A stretch of 64,000 nt of DNA from assembly GCF_014700075.1 (NCBI RefSeq), contig NZ_JACXBU010000006.1, positions 62,001-126,000 of the forward strand, written 5' to 3'. The notes beneath the pieces were generated by a model that had not been told where the DNA came from, searched no databases, and was given only the letters and a program-made list of their open reading frames with translations. Positions 30,681-57,176 of this stretch are shown one piece after another. Each line of letters starts with the position of its first letter. Position 1 is the stretch's first letter. Made by a program: the position numbers and the translations under genes. This DNA is from Pseudomonas sp. JM0905a (GTDB lineage: Bacteria > Pseudomonadota > Gammaproteobacteria > Pseudomonadales > Pseudomonadaceae).

Positions 30681-32075
30681 ATGAACGAAATCACCGCCCC
30701 GGAACAGTTCGACCTGCAAACCGCCGCTCTCAAGGTGCCGCCGCACTCCATCGAGGCCGAGCAGGCCGTCCTCGGGGGCCTGATGCTGGACAACAATGCC
30801 TGGGAGCGTGTGCTCGACCAGGTGTCCGACGGCGACTTCTATCGTCATGACCATCGGCTGATCTTCCGCGCCATCTTCAAGCTGGCCGAGCGCAACTCGC
30901 CATTCGACGTGGTGACTTTGTCCGAGCAACTGGACAAGGAAGGGCAACTGTCCCAGGTGGGCGGCCTGGCCTACCTCGGTGAATTGGCGAAGAACACACC
31001 GTCGGTGGCGAACATCAAGGCCTACGCGCAGATCATTCGCGAGCGCGCCACCCTGCGCCAGTTGATCGGCATCAGCACCGAAATCGCCGACAGCGCCTAT
31101 GCGCCCCAAGGACGGACCGGAGCAGAGATTCTCGACGAGGCCGAGCGCCTGATCTTCCAGATCGCCGAAGCGCGGCCGAAGACCGGTGGCCCGGTGGGAA
31201 TCAATGACATCCTGGTCAAGGCCATCGACCGCATCGACGAACTGTTCAACGCGGGTGACGCCATCACTGGTCTGTCCACCGGCTTCACCGATCTGGACAA
31301 CCTGACCAGTGGCCTGCAGCCGGCCGACATGATCATCGTTGCCGGCCGTCCGTCCATGGGTAAGACCACCTTCGCGATGAACCTGGTCGAGAACGCCCTG
31401 ATGCGCAGCGACAAGGCGATCCTGGTGTATTCCCTGGAAATGCCCTCTGAATCCATCGTGATTCGTATGCTCGCGTCCCTCGGTCGCATCGACCAGACCA
31501 AGGTCCGTGCAGGCCGCCTCGACGATGACGATTGGCCGCGCCTGACTTCAGCAGTCAACCTGCTCAATGACCGCAAGCTGTTCATCGACGATACCGCCGG
31601 CATCTCGCCCTCGGAGATGCGCGCTCGTACCCGCCGCCTGGCGCGCGAGCACGGCGAGATCGGCCTGATCATGGTCGACTACCTGCAACTGATGCAGATT
31701 CCAGGTTCCAGCGGCGATAGCCGGGTGAACGAGATCTCCGAGATTTCGCGCTCGCTCAAGGCCCTGGCCAAGGAATTCAACTGCCCGGTGATCGCTTTGT
31801 CCCAGCTGAACCGGGGCCTCGAACAGCGCCCGAACAAACGCCCGATCAACTCCGACCTTCGCGAATCCGGGGCGATCGAGCAGGATGCCGACATCATCCT
31901 GTTCGTGTACCGCGATGAGGTGTACCACCCCGAGACCGAGTTCAAGGGCGTCGCCGAAATCATCATCGGCAAGCAACGTAACGGTCCGCTGGGCACCGCG
32001 CGGCTGGCCTTCCTCGGCAAGTACTCGCGTTTCGAGAACCTCGCGCCGGGCGCCTACCAGTTCGACGACGAGTAA
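30681..32075 (+). CDS. dnaB: Replicative DNA helicase DnaB
   Basis: Hexameric 5'-3' helicase of the replisome. 464 residues from the ATG at 30681 (MNEITAPEQFDLQTAALKVPP); an in-frame ATG 39 bp earlier lies inside the hairpin and is unlikely. The N-terminal domain has PHSIEAEQAVLGGLMLDN. The RecA-like domain has Walker A GRPSMGKTTFAMNL, Walker B GLIMVDYLQLM, and ALSQLNRGLEQRPNKRP and RESGAIEQDADIILF. No intein is present. SD before the ATG is weak. Confidence 0.97.
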   Translation: MNEITAPEQFDLQTAALKVPPHSIEAEQAVLGGLMLDNNAWERVLDQVSDGDFYRHDHRLIFRAIFKLAERNSPFDVVTLSEQLDKEGQLSQVGGLAYLGELAKNTPSVANIKAYAQIIRERATLRQLIGISTEIADSAYAPQGRTGAEILDEAERLIFQIAEARPKTGGPVGINDILVKAIDRIDELFNAGDAITGLSTGFTDLDNLTSGLQPADMIIVAGRPSMGKTTFAMNLVENALMRSDKAILVYSLEMPSESIVIRMLASLGRIDQTKVRAGRLDDDDWPRLTSAVNLLNDRKLFIDDTAGISPSEMRARTRRLAREHGEIGLIMVDYLQLMQIPGSSGDSRVNEISEISRSLKALAKEFNCPVIALSQLNRGLEQRPNKRPINSDLRESGAIEQDADIILFVYRDEVYHPETEFKGVAEIIIGKQRNGPLGTARLAFLGKYSRFENLAPGAYQFDDE

Positions 32076-40242: not shown

Positions 40243-40340
40243 TGTAGGGGCGAATTCATTCGCCAAGCAGGCCGAAGGTCTGCCGGCCCTTGTTGAAGGG
40301 GACAGCTTCGCTGCCCTTGGCGAATGAATTCGCCCCTGCA
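40243..40340. repeat. REP-type inverted repeat (GCGAATGAATTCGC family)
   Basis: TGTAGGGGCGAATTCATTCG opens the element and CGAATGAATTCGCCCCTGCA closes it, about 55 bp apart, with inner arms also partly complementary. It lies in the 361-bp gap 40237-40597; the rest of the gap holds the sigma-54 promoter at 40544 and no ORF I would call. Confidence 0.75.
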
Positions 40341-40543
40341 GAGGTCATTCACCCTTGATAGCCCGTTATACCCAATCGGCCTAACCAGTTCGCTGCGTGT
40401 TCCCTTCTCCTTCATCTTCGACCGCTAGGCTTGAGTCTCACCTGCTGGCCCGCCGCGAACCATTTTTGTGCGGCCGGGTCATCCGGGTGCGAAGGTGGCC
40501 CTTTTCCGGTGCTCGGAAGGGCCGAAATCCGTGGTTCGGGGGC

Positions 40544-40559
40544 TGGCACAAGTCTTGCG
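40544..40559 (+). promoter_or_regulatory. Sigma-54 promoter of the transglutaminase/ATP-grasp operon
   Basis: TGGCACAAGTCTTGCG: TGGCAC and TTGC with GG and GC exactly 10 bp apart. Only the last base departs from TTGCW. The expected RNA start is near 40570, 28 bp before the GTG start. No clear activator site is visible upstream. Confidence 0.65.
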
Positions 40560-40597
40560 CGACTCCCGTCATCGCCCAGGCTCGCAGGAGGCACGCC

Positions 40598-43500
40598 GTG
40601 TCGATCCATGTCGCACTGCATCACGTCACCCACTATCGCTACGATCGTGAGGTCAACCTCGGTCCGCAGATCATCCGCCTGCGCCCGGCACCTCACAGCC
40701 GCACGCGCGTCCTCGGCTATTCGCTGAAGGTGTCGCCGGGAAAACACTTCATCAACTGGCAGCAGGACCCCCAGGGCAATTACCTGGCGCGCCTGGTGTT
40801 CCCGGACAAGACCCGCGAGATGAAGGTCGAAGTGGACCTGGTCGCCGAGATGGCGGTGTTCAACCCCTTCGACTTCTTCCTCGAACCCATCGCCGACCAG
40901 TTCCCCTTCAGCTACACCGCTGACGACCAGCGCGAGCTGGCGCCCTATCTCAGCCGCCTGCCGGCCACGCCACTGTTCGCCGACTACCTCGGCCGCATCG
41001 ACCTCACGCCCAAGGGCACGGTGGATTTCCTGGTGGCGCTCAACCAGCAACTGTCGCGGGATATCCGTTACCTGATCCGCATGGAGCCCGGCGTGCAGAC
41101 GCCGGAGCAAAGCCTGGAACTGGCCTCCGGCTCCTGCCGCGATTCGGCCTGGCTGCTGGTGCAGCTGCTGCGCCACCTGGGCCTGGCGGCGCGCTTCGTC
41201 TCGGGTTACCTGATCCAGCTCACCGCCGATCAGAAGTCCCTCGACGGTCCGAGCGGCACCGAAGTCGACTTCACCGACCTGCACGCCTGGTGCGAGGTCT
41301 ACCTGCCGGGCGCCGGCTGGGTCGGCCTCGACCCCACCTCCGGCTTGTTCGCCGGCGAGGGCCACATCCCGCTGGCCTGCAGCCCGGAGCCTTCCTCGGC
41401 GGCGCCCATCAGCGGCGCGGTGGACGAAAGCGAGTGCGAGTTCTCCCACGAGATGCGCGTCGAGCGGGTCTGGGAAGCCCCCCGGGTGACCCGGCCCTAC
41501 AGCGAGGAACAGTGGCAGGCTATCCGCGAACTGGGCGCGCGCATCGATGCCGACCTCGTCGCCGGCGATGTGCGCCTGACCATGGGTGGCGAGCCGACCT
41601 TCATCGCCATCGACTATCCCGACGACCCGGAGTGGAACACCGCGGCACTTGGGCCTAACAAGCGCCGCCTGGCCGCCGACCTGTTCCATCGCCTGCGTAG
41701 GCACTACGCACCCCACGGCCTGGTGCACTTCGGCCAGGGCAAGTGGTACCCCGGCGAACAGCTGCCGCGCTGGTCGTTGAACTGCTACTGGCGCAAGGAC
41801 GGCGAACCCATCTGGCAGGACCCGGCCCTCTACGCCGATGAAGGCCGCAGCTACGGTGCCGATGTCCGCCTCGCGGCGCGCTTCCTCAACCGCGTCGCCA
41901 ACCGGCTGGGCGTGCCGGGGGACAATCAGTTCCCGGCCTTCGAGGACTGGTTCTACTACCTCTGGCGCGAGCGCAAGCTGCCCGCCAACGTCACGCCCGA
42001 AGACGCCCGCCTGGCCGACCCGCTGGAGCGTGAGCGCCTGCGCCGGGTGTTCGAGCGCGGCCTGGGAGAAGTGGTGGGGCAGATCCTGCCGCTGGCGCGC
42101 AGCGCGGCGGGCGATGGCTGGGAAAGCGGTCGCTGGTTCCTCCGCGATGAACACTGCCGGCTGATCCCTGGCGACTCGCCGATGGGGTATCGCCTGCCGC
42201 TGGATTCCCAGCCATGGGTCAGCGAAGCGGACTACCCCTACGTGAACCCGGCTGACCCGAGCCAGCAGTTTCCGCCGTTGCGCCAAGCCGCATTGATCCG
42301 CCAACAGTTACGCGACGGCACCCCTTCGCGTGCTGGCGAGCCCCGTGCGCCCGGCATGCAGGAATCCGCAGCTGGCATCACCCGCACGGCACTGTGCGCC
42401 GAACCCCGCGAAGGCCGGCTCTACCTGTTCATGCCACCGCTGTCCGAGCTGGAGGCCTACCTGGAACTGGTGGCCGCCATCGAAGCCACGGCGGGCGAGC
42501 TGGACTGTCCGGTGCTGCTGGAAGGCTACGAGCCGCCCGGTGACCCGCGCCTGACCAACTTCCGTGTCACCCCCGACCCGGGTGTGATCGAGGTGAATAT
42601 CCACCCCTCGGCCAACTGGGACGAACTGGTGGAGCGCACCGAGTTCCTCTACGAGGCCGCGCGTCAGAGCCGCCTCTCCAGCGAGAAATTCATGGTCGAT
42701 GGCCGCCACGTCGGCACCGGCGGCGGCAACCACTTCGTCCTGGGCGGCGCCACGCCGGCGGACTCGCCCTTCCTGCGGCGCCCGGACCTGTTGCGCAGCC
42801 TGATCAGCTACTGGCACAACCATCCGTCGCTGTCCTACCTCTTCTCCGGCCTGTTCATCGGCCCCACCTCCCAGGCGCCACGGGCGGACGAGGCGCGCAA
42901 CGATGCCCTCTACGAGCTGGAAATCGCCTTCCGGCAGATGCCCAAGCCTGGCGCGAATTGCCCGCCTTGGCTGGTGGATCGCCTGCTGCGCAACCTGCTG
43001 GTGGATGTCAGCGGCAACACCCACCGCGCGGAATTCTGCATCGACAAGCTCTACTCGCCCGACAGCAGCACAGGCCGCCTCGGCCTGCTGGAGCTGCGGG
43101 CCTTCGAGATGCCACCCCATGCGCGCATGAGCCTGGCCCAGCAGCTGCTGCTGCGCGGGATGGTGGCGCGCTTCTGGAACGAGCCCTACCAGCCGCCGAA
43201 GCTGGTGCGCTGGGGCACCGAGCTGCATGACCGTTTCCTGCTGCCGCATTTCGTCCAGCAGGACTTCGACGACGTGGTCCATGAGTTCAATGCCGCCGGC
43301 TACCCGTTGCGCAGCGAGTGGTTCGCCCCGCATTTCGAGTTCCGCTTCCCGAAATACGGCGACTACCAGGTGAAGGGCATCGACCTGGAATTGCGCCAGG
43401 CCCTGGAGCCCTGGCATGTGCTGGGCGAGGAGGGCTCTGCCGGCGGAACCGTGCGCTATGTGGATTCGTCCCTGGAGCGGGTACAGGTGAAGGTCAGCGG

Positions 43501-43885
43501 CATGGCGCAGGACCGCTATGTGCTCACCTGCAACGGCGAACCGGTACCGCTGCGGCCCACCGGCCGGGTGGGCGAGTTCGTCGCCGGGGTGCGTTACCGC
43601 GCCTGGCAGCCGGCGTCCTGCCTGCAACCCACCATCGGCGTGCAGGTACCCCTGGTATTCGACCTGGTGGACACCTGGATGCAACGCTCCCTGGGCGGCT
43701 GCCAGTACCATGTGGCCCACCCCGGCGGTCGCAGCTACGACAGCTTCCCGGTGAACGCCTACGAGGCCGAGAGCCGCCGCCTGGCGCGCTTCTTCCGCCA
43801 CGGGCACACGCCGGGCAAGCTGCAGGTCGCCGCGCCGGTGATAGACGATGAACTGCCCATGACCCTGGACCTGCGCCGCCGCTAG
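40598..43885 (+). CDS. Transglutaminase-like / DUF2126 protein
   Basis: 1095 residues from GTG 40598 ([20 protein letters not shown]) with AGGAGG 7 bp upstream; the 67-codon extension upstream runs through the sigma-54 promoter. Domains: transglutaminase N-terminal beta region at about 1-95, transglutaminase core at about 150-270 with Cys in [19 protein letters not shown], His in [12 protein letters not shown], and Asp in VGLDPTSGL. The DUF2126 region fills about 340 to the end ([81 protein letters not shown]). Papain-like triad intact. The reaction is unknown; partners are the next two genes. Confidence 0.9.
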
Positions 43886-43978
43886 GTGGACGCACGAAGC
43901 GCCCTGGCCGCCGATGCAGCGGCCGGGCGTCGCGTCGTCCGCTAAAGTTTCCCTGCTGCCTTTCTGCCGAGCCTGTTG

Positions 43979-46477
43979 ATGTCCGAGCTGCTAGCCAACT
44001 ACCCCCTGACTGCCACGGCCTACCATGAACTGCTGGATGCCGAGGGCCGGGTGCGTCCCCATTGGCAGCGCCTGTTCCAGCAGCTGGAGCGCAGCAGCCC
44101 GGCGCAGATGCTGCAGCGCCAGGACCTGCTGGTGCGGCAGATCCAGGAAAACGGCGTTACCTACAACGTCTACGCCGACCCCAAGGGCACTGATCGCCCC
44201 TGGGAACTGGACCTGCTGCCCAACCTGCTCTCGGCGGAGGAATGGCAGCCAATCGCCGCCGGCGTGGCCCAGCGCGCGCGCCTGCTTAACGCCGTGCTGG
44301 CCGATCTCTACGGCGAGCAGCACCTGCTGGCCGAAGGGTTGCTGCCCAGCGAACTGGTCTTTGGCCACCCCAATTTCCTCTGGCCCTGCCAGGGCGTGCA
44401 GCCGGCCGGCGGCATATTCCTGCACAGCTACGCGGTGGACCTGGCCCGCGATGCCGACGGCCGCTGGCACGTGCTGGCCGACCGCACCCAGGCGCCGTCC
44501 GGCGCCGGCTACGCCCTGGAGAACCGGCAGATCGTCTCCCGCGCCTTGCCGGAGCTGTATCGCGACCTGCGCGTGCAGTACCTGGCCGGCTACTTCCGCA
44601 CCCTGCAGGAAACCCTGATCCGCCATGCCCCCAGCGATGGCGAGACGCCGCTGGTGGTGCTGCTGACGCCCGGGCGTTTCAACGAAACCTATTTCGAACA
44701 CCTCTACCTGGCCCGCCAACTGGGCTTTCCGCTGGTGGAAGGCCACGACCTGACGGTGCGTGACGCCACCCTCTACCTCAAGACCCTTGGCGGCCTGAAA
44801 CGCGTCCATGCCGTGCTGCGCCGCCTCGACGACGATTATTGCGACCCCCTGGAACTGCGCACCGACTCCGCCTTGGGTGTGCCCGGCCTGCTGGATGCGG
44901 CGCGCCAGGGGCGGGTGCTGGTGGCCAATGCCCTGGGCAGCGGCGTGCTGGAGTCGCCGGGACTGCTCGGCTTCTTGCCGAAGGTCAGCCAGCGCCTGCT
45001 CGGGGAAGACCTGCTGCTACCCACCCTGGGTACCTGGTGGTGCGGCCAGGGGCAGTTGCTGGAGAAATCGCTGCAGGGCCTGGACGGGTTGGTGTTCAAG
45101 CCCGCGTTCCCCAGCCAGAGCTTCGAGCCCTTGTTTGGCCATGCCCTGCACGATGGCGCGTTGCAGTCCCTGCGCAAGCGCCTCCAGGCCCATCCCCATG
45201 CCTACGTTGCCCAGCGCATGGCGCAACTGTCCCAGGCGCCAGTCTGGCAGGGGGACGAGCAGACGGGTGAACTGCAGTCGCGGGCCATCGGTATGCGCGT
45301 CTTTGCCGTGGCGGGAAGCGACGGCCGCTACTGGGTGATGCCCGGCGGCCTGACGCGGGTGGCGTCGGCGGCCGATGCCGAAGTTGTGTCCATGCAGCGC
45401 GGTGGCGCCAGCAAGGACACCTGGGTGCTGGCTGACCTGCCGGTGGTGGGCGAACCTCTGCGTCCGCGCTCCCTCGGCGTGCGTGACCTGATCCGCCAGG
45501 ACCCGTATCTGCCCTCGCGGGTGGTGGAAAACCTCTACTGGTTCGGCCGCTACGGCGAACGCTGCGACGACGGCGCCCGCCTGCTGAGGGTGGTGTTGTC
45601 GCGCTATGTGGACGCCGACGGCGACGAGCAGGCCATGCAATCGGCCCTGCGCCTGGCCAGCGCCGTTGGCTTGGTGCCGCGCGGTCACGAGCCGCTGGAA
45701 CAACGCCTGCTTGCAGCCCTGCTGGACGATGAGTGGCCGAGCAGCGTCAGCGCCAACCTGCGTCGCCTGCACTGGGCCGCGGCCCAGGTGCGTGGGCGGC
45801 TGTCGCGGGAGAACTGGCACGCGGTGCTGGAATTGAACCGCGATGCGCTGGCGCTGGACCCGAAGCGCACCGACCTGGGCGAAGCGCTGGAATTCCTCAA
45901 CCGCTTGCTGATGTCCCTGGCCGCGCTGTCCGGCTTCGCCCTCGACGACATGACCCGCGACGACGGCTGGCGCTTCCTGATGATCGGCCGCCGCATCGAG
46001 CGCGTGCAGTTCTACGCCGAGGCCATCGCCGGCTTCCTCGAAGGCGGCGCCGCCTGGGACCCGGTTGCCCTGGAGTGGCTGCTGGAGCTGGGCAACAGCA
46101 CCATCACCTACCGCTCGCGCTACCTCGCCTCGCCACAGCTGATCCCGGTGCTCGACCTGCTGTTGCTGCACGAACAGAACCCCCACGCACTGCGCTTCCA
46201 GCTGCAGGCTCTGGAGCGCTCCCTGGGGCGCCTGCACCTGGAGTTCGGCGCGCCCCAGGAACTGGTGCTAAGTGGCCTGATCGGGCGCCTGCTGGCCTTC
46301 GACCTAGCTACCCTGGAAGACCCGCTGTTCGGCAGCGAAAGCGTGACCGAGGTGCTGGCCGGGCTGGCAGGTCTGCTGCGGGAAATCGCACAGAACGTCG
46401 GCCAGGTCTCCGACCGCCTCGGATTGCGCTATTTTGCCCACGTCGATGACGTCAGCCAGCAAACGGTATCCACCTGA
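43979..46477 (+). CDS. Circularly permuted ATP-grasp / alpha-E fusion protein
   Basis: 832 residues. The first about 480 match the permuted ATP-grasp family (COG2308): NGVTYNVYADPKGTDRPWEL, RARLLNAVLADLYGEQHLL, GYALENRQIVSRALPELY, LTPGRFNETYFEHLYLAR, and GLDGLVFKPAFPSQSFEP. Residues about 500-830 match the alpha-E domain (COG2307): YLPSRVVENLYWFGRYGERCDD and DDGWRFLMIGRRIERVQFYAE. ATP-grasp enzymes make amide or peptide bonds; the family is predicted to act as a peptide or amino-acid ligase, but no product is known. In many bacteria the two halves are separate genes. ATG at 43979; SD weak. The stop overlaps the next start by 1 bp. Confidence 0.88.
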   Translation: MSELLANYPLTATAYHELLDAEGRVRPHWQRLFQQLERSSPAQMLQRQDLLVRQIQENGVTYNVYADPKGTDRPWELDLLPNLLSAEEWQPIAAGVAQRARLLNAVLADLYGEQHLLAEGLLPSELVFGHPNFLWPCQGVQPAGGIFLHSYAVDLARDADGRWHVLADRTQAPSGAGYALENRQIVSRALPELYRDLRVQYLAGYFRTLQETLIRHAPSDGETPLVVLLTPGRFNETYFEHLYLARQLGFPLVEGHDLTVRDATLYLKTLGGLKRVHAVLRRLDDDYCDPLELRTDSALGVPGLLDAARQGRVLVANALGSGVLESPGLLGFLPKVSQRLLGEDLLLPTLGTWWCGQGQLLEKSLQGLDGLVFKPAFPSQSFEPLFGHALHDGALQSLRKRLQAHPHAYVAQRMAQLSQAPVWQGDEQTGELQSRAIGMRVFAVAGSDGRYWVMPGGLTRVASAADAEVVSMQRGGASKDTWVLADLPVVGEPLRPRSLGVRDLIRQDPYLPSRVVENLYWFGRYGERCDDGARLLRVVLSRYVDADGDEQAMQSALRLASAVGLVPRGHEPLEQRLLAALLDDEWPSSVSANLRRLHWAAAQVRGRLSRENWHAVLELNRDALALDPKRTDLGEALEFLNRLLMSLAALSGFALDDMTRDDGWRFLMIGRRIERVQFYAEAIAGFLEGGAAWDPVALEWLLELGNSTITYRSRYLASPQLIPVLDLLLLHEQNPHALRFQLQALERSLGRLHLEFGAPQELVLSGLIGRLLAFDLATLEDPLFGSESVTEVLAGLAGLLREIAQNVGQVSDRLGLRYFAHVDDVSQQTVST

Positions 46478-47412
46478 TGCGCGCGCAAGCCCAATCCATC
46501 GCCCCCGTGCAGGGCGCCCGCTACCAGGTGTTCCACGACACCCACTACCGCTATTCGGCGCCGGTGTCCCTGTCCCAGCAACTGGTGCACCTCTGGCCGC
46601 GCGATTGTCCCTGGCAGCTGTGCAGCGGCCAGGAGCTGCTGATCAATCCCGAACCCACGCTGCGGCAGGACCTCACGGACGTTTTCGGCAACCCGCTGAC
46701 GCGCCTGGCCTTCGAGCGCCCCCACGATGAATTGCAGGTGAATGCGCGCCTGCAGGTCGAGGTGCTGCCCCATGGACAGGTGGACCTGACTGCTTCTCCG
46801 GCCTGGGAACAGGTGCCGGCAAGCCTGGCCTTCAGCGGTCGAGCCTTGTCCTCCCTGGAGCTGGAGGCCTGCCGCTACCGGGTGGAGTCGCCCTATGTGC
46901 GCATCAAGCGCCAGTTCGCCGAGTTCGGTGCCGGCTGCTTCCCCGCCGGGCGGCCGCTGTTGCAGGGCGCGGCGGCGTTGATGGAAAAGATCTTCAGCGA
47001 GTTTTCCTTCGACGCCGAGGCCACCCAGGTAGCGACGCCGCTGACCGAGGTGCTGGAGCGCCGCCGTGGCGTCTGCCAGGACTTCGCCCACCTGATGCTC
47101 GCCTGCTTGCGGTCACGGGGACTGGCGGCGCGCTATGTGAGCGGCTACCTGCTGACTCAGCCGCCCCCCGGCCAGCCGCGCCTGATCGGCGCCGACGCCT
47201 CCCACGCCTGGGTCTCCGTGTACTGCCCGCACAATGGCTGGGTGGACTTCGACCCCACCAACAACATCCTGCCCAACCTGGAACACATCACCCTGGCCTG
47301 GGGGCGCGACTTCTCCGATGTCTCGCCGCTGCGCGGGGTCATCCTCGGCGGCGGCAGCCACGACCCGGAAGTCCGCGTCACCGTCATGCCGCTCTGGGAA
47401 CTCGCCATCTGA
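46477..47412 (+). CDS. Transglutaminase-like protein
   Basis: 311 residues. N-terminal transglutaminase beta region at about 5-95 (YQVFHDTHYRYSAPVSLSQQ). Core at about 160-260: Cys in RRGVCQDFAHLMLACLRSRG, His in DASHAWVSVYCPHNG, and Asp in WVDFDPTNN, all in place. C-terminus has WGRDFSDVSPLRGVILGGG. Cytoplasmic by lack of signal peptide. Shares its start base with the stop of the ATP-grasp/alpha-E gene (TGATG), so all three genes are one operon. Likely a peptidase or transpeptidase acting on the ligase product, which is inference. Confidence 0.9.
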   Translation: MRAQAQSIAPVQGARYQVFHDTHYRYSAPVSLSQQLVHLWPRDCPWQLCSGQELLINPEPTLRQDLTDVFGNPLTRLAFERPHDELQVNARLQVEVLPHGQVDLTASPAWEQVPASLAFSGRALSSLELEACRYRVESPYVRIKRQFAEFGAGCFPAGRPLLQGAAALMEKIFSEFSFDAEATQVATPLTEVLERRRGVCQDFAHLMLACLRSRGLAARYVSGYLLTQPPPGQPRLIGADASHAWVSVYCPHNGWVDFDPTNNILPNLEHITLAWGRDFSDVSPLRGVILGGGSHDPEVRVTVMPLWELAI

Positions 47413-47594: not shown

Positions 47595-48443
47595 ATGGAT
47601 GAAACAACCATCGTTAATGTGGGGACCGAGAAGGTCAGCGCGTTTATGACCACGGTCATGCAGTACGCCACCACCTTCGGCGTCAAGATTCTCGCGGCCA
47701 TCGCCTTCTGGGTGGTCGGCCGCTGGCTCATCGGCTTCGCGGTCGGGCTGGTCCAGCGTTCGCTGGAGCGGCAGAAGGTGGACCCGACGGTGCTGCGTTA
47801 TGTCGGGTCGTTCATCACCGTCACCCTGAACATCCTACTGGTGGTGGGCATCCTCGGGTATTTCGGCATCCAGACCACCAGCCTCGCGGCTCTGATCGCG
47901 GCGGTTGGCCTGGCCATCGGCATGGCCTGGTCGGGCCTGCTGGCCAACCTGGCGGCGGGCGGCTTCATCATCGTCCTGCGGCCGTTCAAGGTCGGTGACT
48001 TCATCAGTGCCGGCGGCGTGACCGGTACCGTGAAGGAGATCGGCCTGTTCGCCACGTCCATCAACACCCCGGACAACGTGATGACCCTGGTGGGCAACAA
48101 CAAGATCTTCAGTGACACCATCCAGAACTTCAGCCACAACGAATTCCGCCGCGTGGAATTGAAGGCCCAGCTCTCCGGAGCCGCCGATTGGCAGGCTGCT
48201 GCGGCACTGCTCAAGCAGCGCATCGCCACCATCCCCAATGTGCTGAGCGAGCCGCCGGTGGATGTGGAAATCCTCGAGTTCAACCTGGTGGGACCGGTGC
48301 TGGCGGTGCGGCCCTATTGCCACAACGACCAGTATTGGCAGGTGTATTTCGATTCCAACCGGGTGATCAAGGAGGCCCTGGGGACCGACTTCCCCGCGCC
48401 CATGCCGGCGCAGACCATCATCGTGCAACAGCCGCAGGGGTGA
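47595..48443 (+). CDS. Small-conductance mechanosensitive channel MscS
   Basis: 282 residues, close to E. coli MscS. TM1 about 25-48, TM2 about 60-82, and the pore helix TM3 at about 92-125 with the Gly/Ala pattern LAALIAAVGLAIGMAWSGLLANLAAG. The beta domain follows with FKVGDFISAGGVTGTVKEIG and TPDNVMTLVGNNKIFS. Opens under membrane tension to release solutes. An AAGGTG element precedes the ATG. Ends in a small hairpin (48450-48466). Confidence 0.94.
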   Translation: MDETTIVNVGTEKVSAFMTTVMQYATTFGVKILAAIAFWVVGRWLIGFAVGLVQRSLERQKVDPTVLRYVGSFITVTLNILLVVGILGYFGIQTTSLAALIAAVGLAIGMAWSGLLANLAAGGFIIVLRPFKVGDFISAGGVTGTVKEIGLFATSINTPDNVMTLVGNNKIFSDTIQNFSHNEFRRVELKAQLSGAADWQAAAALLKQRIATIPNVLSEPPVDVEILEFNLVGPVLAVRPYCHNDQYWQVYFDSNRVIKEALGTDFPAPMPAQTIIVQQPQG

Positions 48444-48466: not shown

Positions 48467-48488
48467 TTGGCGAATGAATTCGCCCCCA
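48467..48488. repeat. Half REP element
   Basis: TTGGCGAATGAATTCGCCCC, the same arm as in the 40243-40340 element but without its partner. The rest of 48489-48648 is GC-rich and includes CCCCTCTCCCTCT and GGGGAGAGGG stretches that are inverted copies of each other. No gene is seen. Confidence 0.6.
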
Positions 48489-51623: not shown

Positions 51624-51712
51624 TGCGGGAGCGAATTTATTCGCGATAGGCCGTGAACGGCGTGGGACCACGGGCCGCTGGCGGCCCTTCGCGAATGAAT
51701 TCGCTCCTACAG
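51624..51712. repeat. REP-type inverted repeat, reaching into the DUF1338 stop
   Basis: GGGAGCGAATTTATTCGCG opens and CGCGAATGAATTCGCTCC closes the element, with GGGCCGC/GCGGCCC inside. The last arm overlaps the stop codon (TAG, 51707-51709) of the DUF1338 gene. Confidence 0.75.
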
Positions 51713-52860: not shown

Positions 52861-52888
52861 TGTAGGGGCGAATGAATTCGCCCCTACG
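52861..52888. repeat. Minimal REP palindrome
   Basis: GTAGGGGCGAAT and ATTCGCCCCTAC with two central bases: one compact copy of the same family, between the DUF1338 and lysR genes. The rest of the 208-bp gap shows no gene. Confidence 0.75.
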
Positions 52889-57160: not shown

Positions 57161-57176
57161 TGGCACGCCACTTGCT
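57161..57176 (+). promoter_or_regulatory. Sigma-54 promoter of the branched-chain-type ABC operon
   Basis: TGGCACGCCACTTGCT matches TGGCACG-N4-TTGCW at every defined position with the exact GG-N10-GC spacing. RNA would start near 57188, 31 bp before the ATG. Confidence 0.85.

Follow-up and report, generated by a model that had tools for sequence, protein, structure and literature searches.

For gene sets that combine an ATP-grasp protein, an alpha-E domain, transglutaminases (TGases), and an amidoligase, Iyer et al. in 2009 reportedly predicted, by comparative genomics, that they make a peptide or an amide; the families concerned are, as we take it, COG2308, COG2307, COG1305, and COG4196. Here we describe an operon of this type in a 64,000-nucleotide stretch of the genome of Pseudomonas sp. 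JM0905a (contig NZ_JACXBU010000006.1; hereafter the window, with positions counted from its first letter and all operon features on the + strand). It consists of g1, a TGase fused to DUF2126 (a glutamine-synthetase-like predicted amidoligase), g2, a circularly permuted ATP-grasp with an alpha-E domain, and g3, a stand-alone TGase. The operon is real, conserved, and widespread and not a product of chance. We read it as part of a system that makes and breaks amide bonds under nitrogen limitation, in which DUF2126 and a separately encoded ATP-grasp would serve as the ligase and g2 as a non-catalytic partner, and assign this reading a probability of roughly 0.55. Gene sets of this type are common and a ligase role had been predicted for them earlier; the degenerate state of g2 moves the chemistry to DUF2126 and a second locus, which would explain why testing the operon alone could fail, while the promoter indicates when to look, namely under nitrogen limitation.

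The operon and its degenerate ATP-grasp

The fold of g2 (43979..46477, ATG at 43979 with an alternative start TTG at 43976; alpha-E domain, PF04168, at 45509..46435) is that of a permuted ATP-grasp, and the gene is under purifying selection. Its predicted catalytic residues are largely gone. In an alignment of 152 g2-type and 73 stand-alone ATP-grasps (excluding sequences interrupted by in-frame stops or only partially covered), the E-x-N metal motif, kept in 73/73 of the stand-alone proteins, reads A167-D-R169 in g2 (44477..44485), with E kept in 1/152 and N in 0/152 g2-type sequences. The four letters of the Gly-rich phosphate loop GGYG (45116..45127 in g2, in a gapped region that leaves the register uncertain) are kept in 8, 14, 2, and 6 of the 152, respectively, and the equivalents of H421, D423, and N454 are lost in nearly all orthologues, although the loop and these further residues, too, are present in 73/73 of the stand-alone proteins. 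The metal motif was mapped by its spacing (D, E at +13, N at +15), by the YgiC, YjfC, and trypanothione synthetase lines, and by the Cp1B passage, since hhalign did not produce a meaningful alignment when either ATP-grasp profile, intact or degenerate, was compared with a single GSP_synth protein. A tree of 54 intact-type and 116 g2 sequences (93 % filter) splits the two groups with a support of 1.0; the midpoint root fell within g2, hence only the split was used. Judged by these residues, g2 seems to be a pseudo-ligase that has lost its catalytic residues and was kept as a partner; no description of it as degenerate was found in the searched excerpts of the open-access literature. The original prediction had the operon's own ATP-grasp form the amide bond, which is at odds with the loss of the predicted metal ligands and the phosphate loop in nearly all 152 orthologues. 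It had named a loss of catalytic residues in a structure-based alignment as the finding that would speak against it; the loss is largely there, as seen in an alignment of sequences, with fold matches in support, rather than in a superposition of residues.

A second, intact-type ATP-grasp, which the original prediction had passed over, is present in every DUF2126 genome sampled. DUF2126 occurs in 84/299 sampled genomes of the phylum, in 88/198 of the family, and in 35/194 from the phylum of a Verrucomicrobia-labelled relative (the phylum and family samples have six DUF2126 genomes in common), and it was found without an intact-type ATP-grasp in 0/84, 0/88, and 0/35 cases, as compared to intact-type copies in 71/215, 36/110, and 15/159 genomes that lack DUF2126; weak matches in one genome of the phylum sample (G149) and one of the family sample (G470) were not counted as intact-type. 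The intact-type gene lies inside the fetched g1 neighbourhood in 20/60 and 36/80 loci of the two sets described below, and a gene of its cluster stands directly upstream of g1 on the same strand in 4/60 and 19/80.

For these neighbourhoods, loci around g1 were fetched in one set of 60 and one of 80. The best conserved gene of the operon is g1, with identities of 56–82 % and 61–92 %, respectively (the closest named relative among the matches listed is Pseudomonas sp. BN102, 92 %), as compared to 29–71 % for g2 in the 60-locus set. Among loci whose sequence extends 4.5 kb or more beyond g1, the order g1-g2-g3 on one strand recurs in 49/59 and 67/74, so that the three genes do occur together in other genomes, a point on which the original prediction had hinged. 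A divergent-looking form of DUF2126, with frames of about 700–860 amino acids (aa), was also seen in several genomes (G267, G563, G569, G572, G615, and others), where the proteins match the profile in separate pieces (326–826 and parts of 32–266).

The product of g1 (40598..43885) comprises 1095 aa if translation begins at the likely start, a GTG at 40598 behind the ribosome-binding site AGGAGG (40586..40591); the g1 alignment starts at residue 1, on GTG, ATG, or TTG, in 51/51 family regions. Pfam assigns Bact_transglu_N, Transglut_core, and DUF2126 (1354.9 bits) to g1, CP_ATPgrasp_2/CP_ATPgrasp_1 and Alpha-E to g2, and Bact_transglu_N and Transglut_core to g3 (46477..47412), and none of the three matched an NCBIfam profile. 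The TGase part of g1 spans about residues 6–246, and its triad C180/H229/D245 (41135..41332) is invariant in 185/185 g1 sequences, as is C200/H243/D259 in 145/145 g3 sequences. The genes g2 and g3 share a single base, which ends the g2 stop codon and opens g3. No hydrophobic N-terminal segment was detected in the first 55 residues of g1, g2, or g3 (best 15-residue Kyte–Doolittle mean below 0.5), and the work of the system is probably done in the cytoplasm. In its description of three linked genes, the shared base, two intact triads, and the lack of signal peptides, the original prediction is thus borne out.

Promoter and probable nitrogen control

The operon had originally been taken to start at 40544. 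The codon at this position, TGG, is no start codon; 40544 is instead the first base of a near-consensus σ54-type −24/−12 promoter that had been passed over, TGGCACAAGTCTTGC (40544..40558, pattern TGGCAC-N5-TTGC), 54 bases before the GTG of g1. Together with an NtrC-like enhancer palindrome further upstream, GAACCATTTTTGTGC (40457..40471, 10/12 arm positions), both elements that define an NtrC/σ54 regulon promoter are present upstream of g1. For scoring, we used what we take to be the σ54 and NtrC consensus sequences, with cut-offs of at least 10.7 of 12.1 at 30–80 bases before the gene for σ54 sites in the family and of at least 10 of 12 for the palindromes. By this measure, σ54-type sites lie 52–74 bases before g1 in 45/51 family regions and precede the paralogous Anbu operon in 20/21 (background in the same loci about 0.0035 per 40 positions), and NtrC-like palindromes are found before g1 in 30/51 (0.54 expected) and before the Anbu operon in 15/21 (0.22 expected), with the restriction that all these promoter counts come from related and not from independent sequences. 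Across the two fetched sets, σ54 sites were present in 24/24 Pseudomonas g1 regions and, within 200 bases, in 28/112 non-Pseudomonas ones (0.0087 expected each), a scan that took in 136/140 loci since the orientation of L072, L087, L245, and L268 was unconfirmed; the regions of intact-type ATP-grasps carried such a site in 16/52 cases. Judging from this promoter anatomy, the operon is apparently switched on when nitrogen is short.

An expression study of Burkholderia cenocepacia H111 is consistent with such control: in the excerpts of that report, expression of the cluster I35_5080–5083, annotated as DUF404/407, DUF403, TGase, and a large TGase protein, is NtrC-dependent, with table values of −8.2, −9.4, −9.4, and −6.0 in the ntrC mutant (PMC5491218). 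By annotation and gene order, this cluster appears to be orthologous, the order in Burkholderia sp. TSV86 being ATP-grasp, alpha-E, TGase, TGase-DUF2126, g2, and g3.

Two more full-score σ54-type sites are found in the window, TGGCACGGGCTTTGC at 960 (+) and TGGCACGCCACTTGC at 57161 (+). In addition, when up to 2 mismatches are allowed, a REP-like palindrome, GCGAATTCATTCGCC, is matched 10 times over both strands, against an expectation of 0.23, with several of these matches being the two strands of a single site; the sites lie at 40249–40334, 48469–48484, 51631–51704, and 52867–52882, with one inverted pair upstream of the operon promoter.

Proposed mechanism and rival explanations

Within the operon, the candidate ligase would be DUF2126 and not the ATP-grasp of g2. 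It models as a glutamine-synthetase-like ligase fold and has the invariant residues E332, E642, E665, H712, E832, and R834, putative counterparts, by motif only, of the metal-binding Glu/His and the substrate Arg of glutamine synthetase (GS). Pfam gave no GS or GCS match to DUF2126 at an E-value of 10, not even a weak one, and no mention of DUF2126 by name was found in the open-access literature searched. In the mechanism that we propose, NtrC and σ54 would turn on both loci under nitrogen limitation, DUF2126 with its GS/GCS-like fold would act as the ATP-dependent carboxylate-amine ligase of the operon, and the intact ATP-grasp/alpha-E pair encoded elsewhere would supply a preceding or following ligation. 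As non-catalytic partner of one or both ligases, g2 might serve as a scaffold, in substrate presentation, or in regulation by way of alpha-E. The amide or isopeptide formed in this way would be transferred or hydrolysed by the two Cys-His-Asp TGases. Since the neighbourhoods yielded no target or precursor gene shared by most of them, a metabolite, a small peptide, or a housekeeping protein is the probable substrate. A more specific version, which we advance tentatively and consider less probable than the general reading, is an obligate enzyme/pseudoenzyme pair: the pseudo-ATP-grasp-alpha-E, preserved by purifying selection in Proteobacteria and Verrucomicrobia alike, would work only with its intact sister ATP-grasp and the TGase–GS fusion. 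Together they would form a conjugation cycle of nitrogen starvation: amines or peptides would first be ligated, and thiol enzymes of the transglutaminase type would later set them free.

The promoter anatomy, the gene set, the TGase triads, the degeneracy of g2, and the co-occurrence of DUF2126 with an intact-type ATP-grasp were computed directly; several points nevertheless weigh against the reading built on them, not least that expression in JM0905a, the activities, the order of steps, and the substrate are inferred. The g1 model is only moderately confident (pLDDT 70, pTM 0.65), with low values near a portion of the TGase site, the Glu/His/Arg match of DUF2126 to GS is a motif reading and no superposition, and E131, which we take to be a metal ligand of GS, aligns by eye with T334. 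Intact-type ATP-grasps in whole genomes were called by score and not by reading the motif, some of the sampled genomes are incomplete, and genomes within each sample are related, so that Fisher p-values overstate their independence. A single ATP-grasp copy was found in 6/84 DUF2126 genomes, which indicates that g2 is not strictly required. On the side of regulation, a good σ54 site is lacking in 6/51 family regions and in 84/112 non-Pseudomonas g1 regions, where control either differs or the promoter precedes another gene, and in the excerpts of one study the protein expression of the Anbu operon was unchanged under various conditions (PMC5666114).

Among the rivals, nitrogen salvage by glutamylation of amines is the strongest, and we regard it as possible, if rather doubtful: the GS-like DUF2126 would γ-glutamylate or peptidylate amines such as polyamines, in the manner of GmaS and PuuA, and the TGases would later hydrolyse the amide and so free the nitrogen. 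An unlikely alternative is that g2 is itself an active amide ligase that uses other metal and phosphate residues, with DUF2126 and the TGases finishing the product. It would have to cope with the near-complete loss of E-x-N, GGYG, and the H421, D423, and N454 equivalents, and in the structurally related Cp1B, an exchange of E or N for alanine abolishes or severely impairs activity, as far as the excerpts of the source go; moreover, DUF2126 is seen only alongside an intact-type ATP-grasp.

Still less probable is a tagging system that feeds the proteasome-like protein Anbu. It would fit that JM0905a has a complete Anbu operon on contig 22 (L003, 8281–12274), preceded by a full-score σ54 site and an NtrC-like site and hence by the same promoter type, and that Anbu lies near g1 in 6/60 and 2/80 loci. 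Yet Anbu is found in 34/88 DUF2126 genomes as compared to 31/110 without DUF2126 (Fisher p 0.13), which is no clear enrichment, and no anbu gene is present at 32001–56000 of the window. As a required partner, for which the original prediction had proposed a comparison of neighbourhoods, Anbu is rejected by this distribution. Four DUF2126 neighbourhoods without a g2-type gene (L054, L065, L066, and L067) have g1 near Anbu, and in three of them an intact-type ATP-grasp is near g1 as well. The least probable rival is that the sites in Pseudomonas merely reflect common descent and that nitrogen does not control the operon: the Pseudomonas sequences are related and no Pseudomonas expression data for the operon turned up in the searched excerpts of the open-access literature, but the sites recur above background outside Pseudomonas (28/112) and upstream of the paralogous operon (20/21), and NtrC dependence is reported for the Burkholderia cluster in the excerpts of PMC5491218.

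Neighbouring genes and comparison with known systems

A search of the neighbours for a conserved target had also been proposed. ORFs (open reading frames) of at least 80 aa were clustered over 141 loci, a procedure limited by the poor performance of greedy ORF calling on high-GC DNA, and beyond the gene set itself they yielded no target or precursor gene that most neighbourhoods have in common. A total of 34 clusters reached at least 4 of 116 non-Pseudomonas loci. The largest of them correspond to g1, g2/ATP-grasp, g3, and alpha-E, and four consist of operon genes read in antisense. The sole recurrent extra neighbour identified as plausible is a zinc-ribbon/Peptidase_Mx protein, found in 19/116 non-Pseudomonas and 0/25 Pseudomonas loci (e. 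g., L239 17804–18952, L077 6382–7518, L097 12719–13912, and 16 other loci), with HExxH in 19/19, mostly at most 620 bases from an operon gene and sometimes directly after g3; this suggests that a metallopeptidase also cuts the peptide or amide in some lineages. A search of the JM0905a genome for it gave no match, but neither did the control genomes. Other recurrent neighbours are a competence protein (12 loci), a sensor kinase (11 loci), and, by eye, a LysR-like regulator (22 loci, 14 of them in Pseudomonas). Among small ORFs of 20–120 aa around the operon (81 loci), 9/149 clusters occur in at least 4 non-Pseudomonas loci, the largest in 10, and a precursor peptide may be among them. In the window, an MscS-type mechanosensitive channel gene (47595–48443) follows the operon on the same strand after 182 bases.

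In terms of fold, g2 resembles 3n6x (Mfla_0391), glutathione/homoglutathione synthetase, YgiC/YjfC, GspS, and Cp1B. Unlike g2, which has neither, 3n6x keeps both E-x-N and the Gly-rich loop, and YgiC/YjfC and trypanothione synthetase keep E-x-N. DUF2126 shares its fold with the carboxylate-amine ligases GS and GCS (YbdK) and has invariant Glu/His/Arg residues, but differs from them by large insertions, the N-terminal TGase fusion, and one presumed metal ligand that is apparently Thr. The RloABC and RimBK systems of Pseudomonas likewise contain an ATP-grasp protein, which in Rlo is accompanied by a transglutaminase-like protein; RloB, according to the excerpts of its description, is an inactive TGase fused to 7 transmembrane helices and found with secreted proteases (PMC12239564), in contrast to the operon described here with its intact triads and no signal peptide seen. 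The Anbu operon (e. g., PP_2685–2688 in P. putida) has paralogous ATP-grasp, alpha-E, and TGase and a shared NtrC/σ54-type promoter; in JM0905a, it encodes the intact-type ATP-grasp as a protein of its own and lacks DUF2126, whereas the operon in the window has no Anbu.

With the gene sets of Iyer et al., finally, the operon shares domain families, ordered linkage, and intact Cys-His-Asp TGase triads, and the original prediction of a peptide- or amide-type system agrees with what these authors reportedly foresaw, as relayed in excerpts of citing papers. It departs from these sets as predicted in two respects: its own ATP-grasp is degenerate, and the presence of DUF2126 goes with that of an intact-type copy located elsewhere. 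It is an operon of the predicted kind, with an unexpected division of labour.

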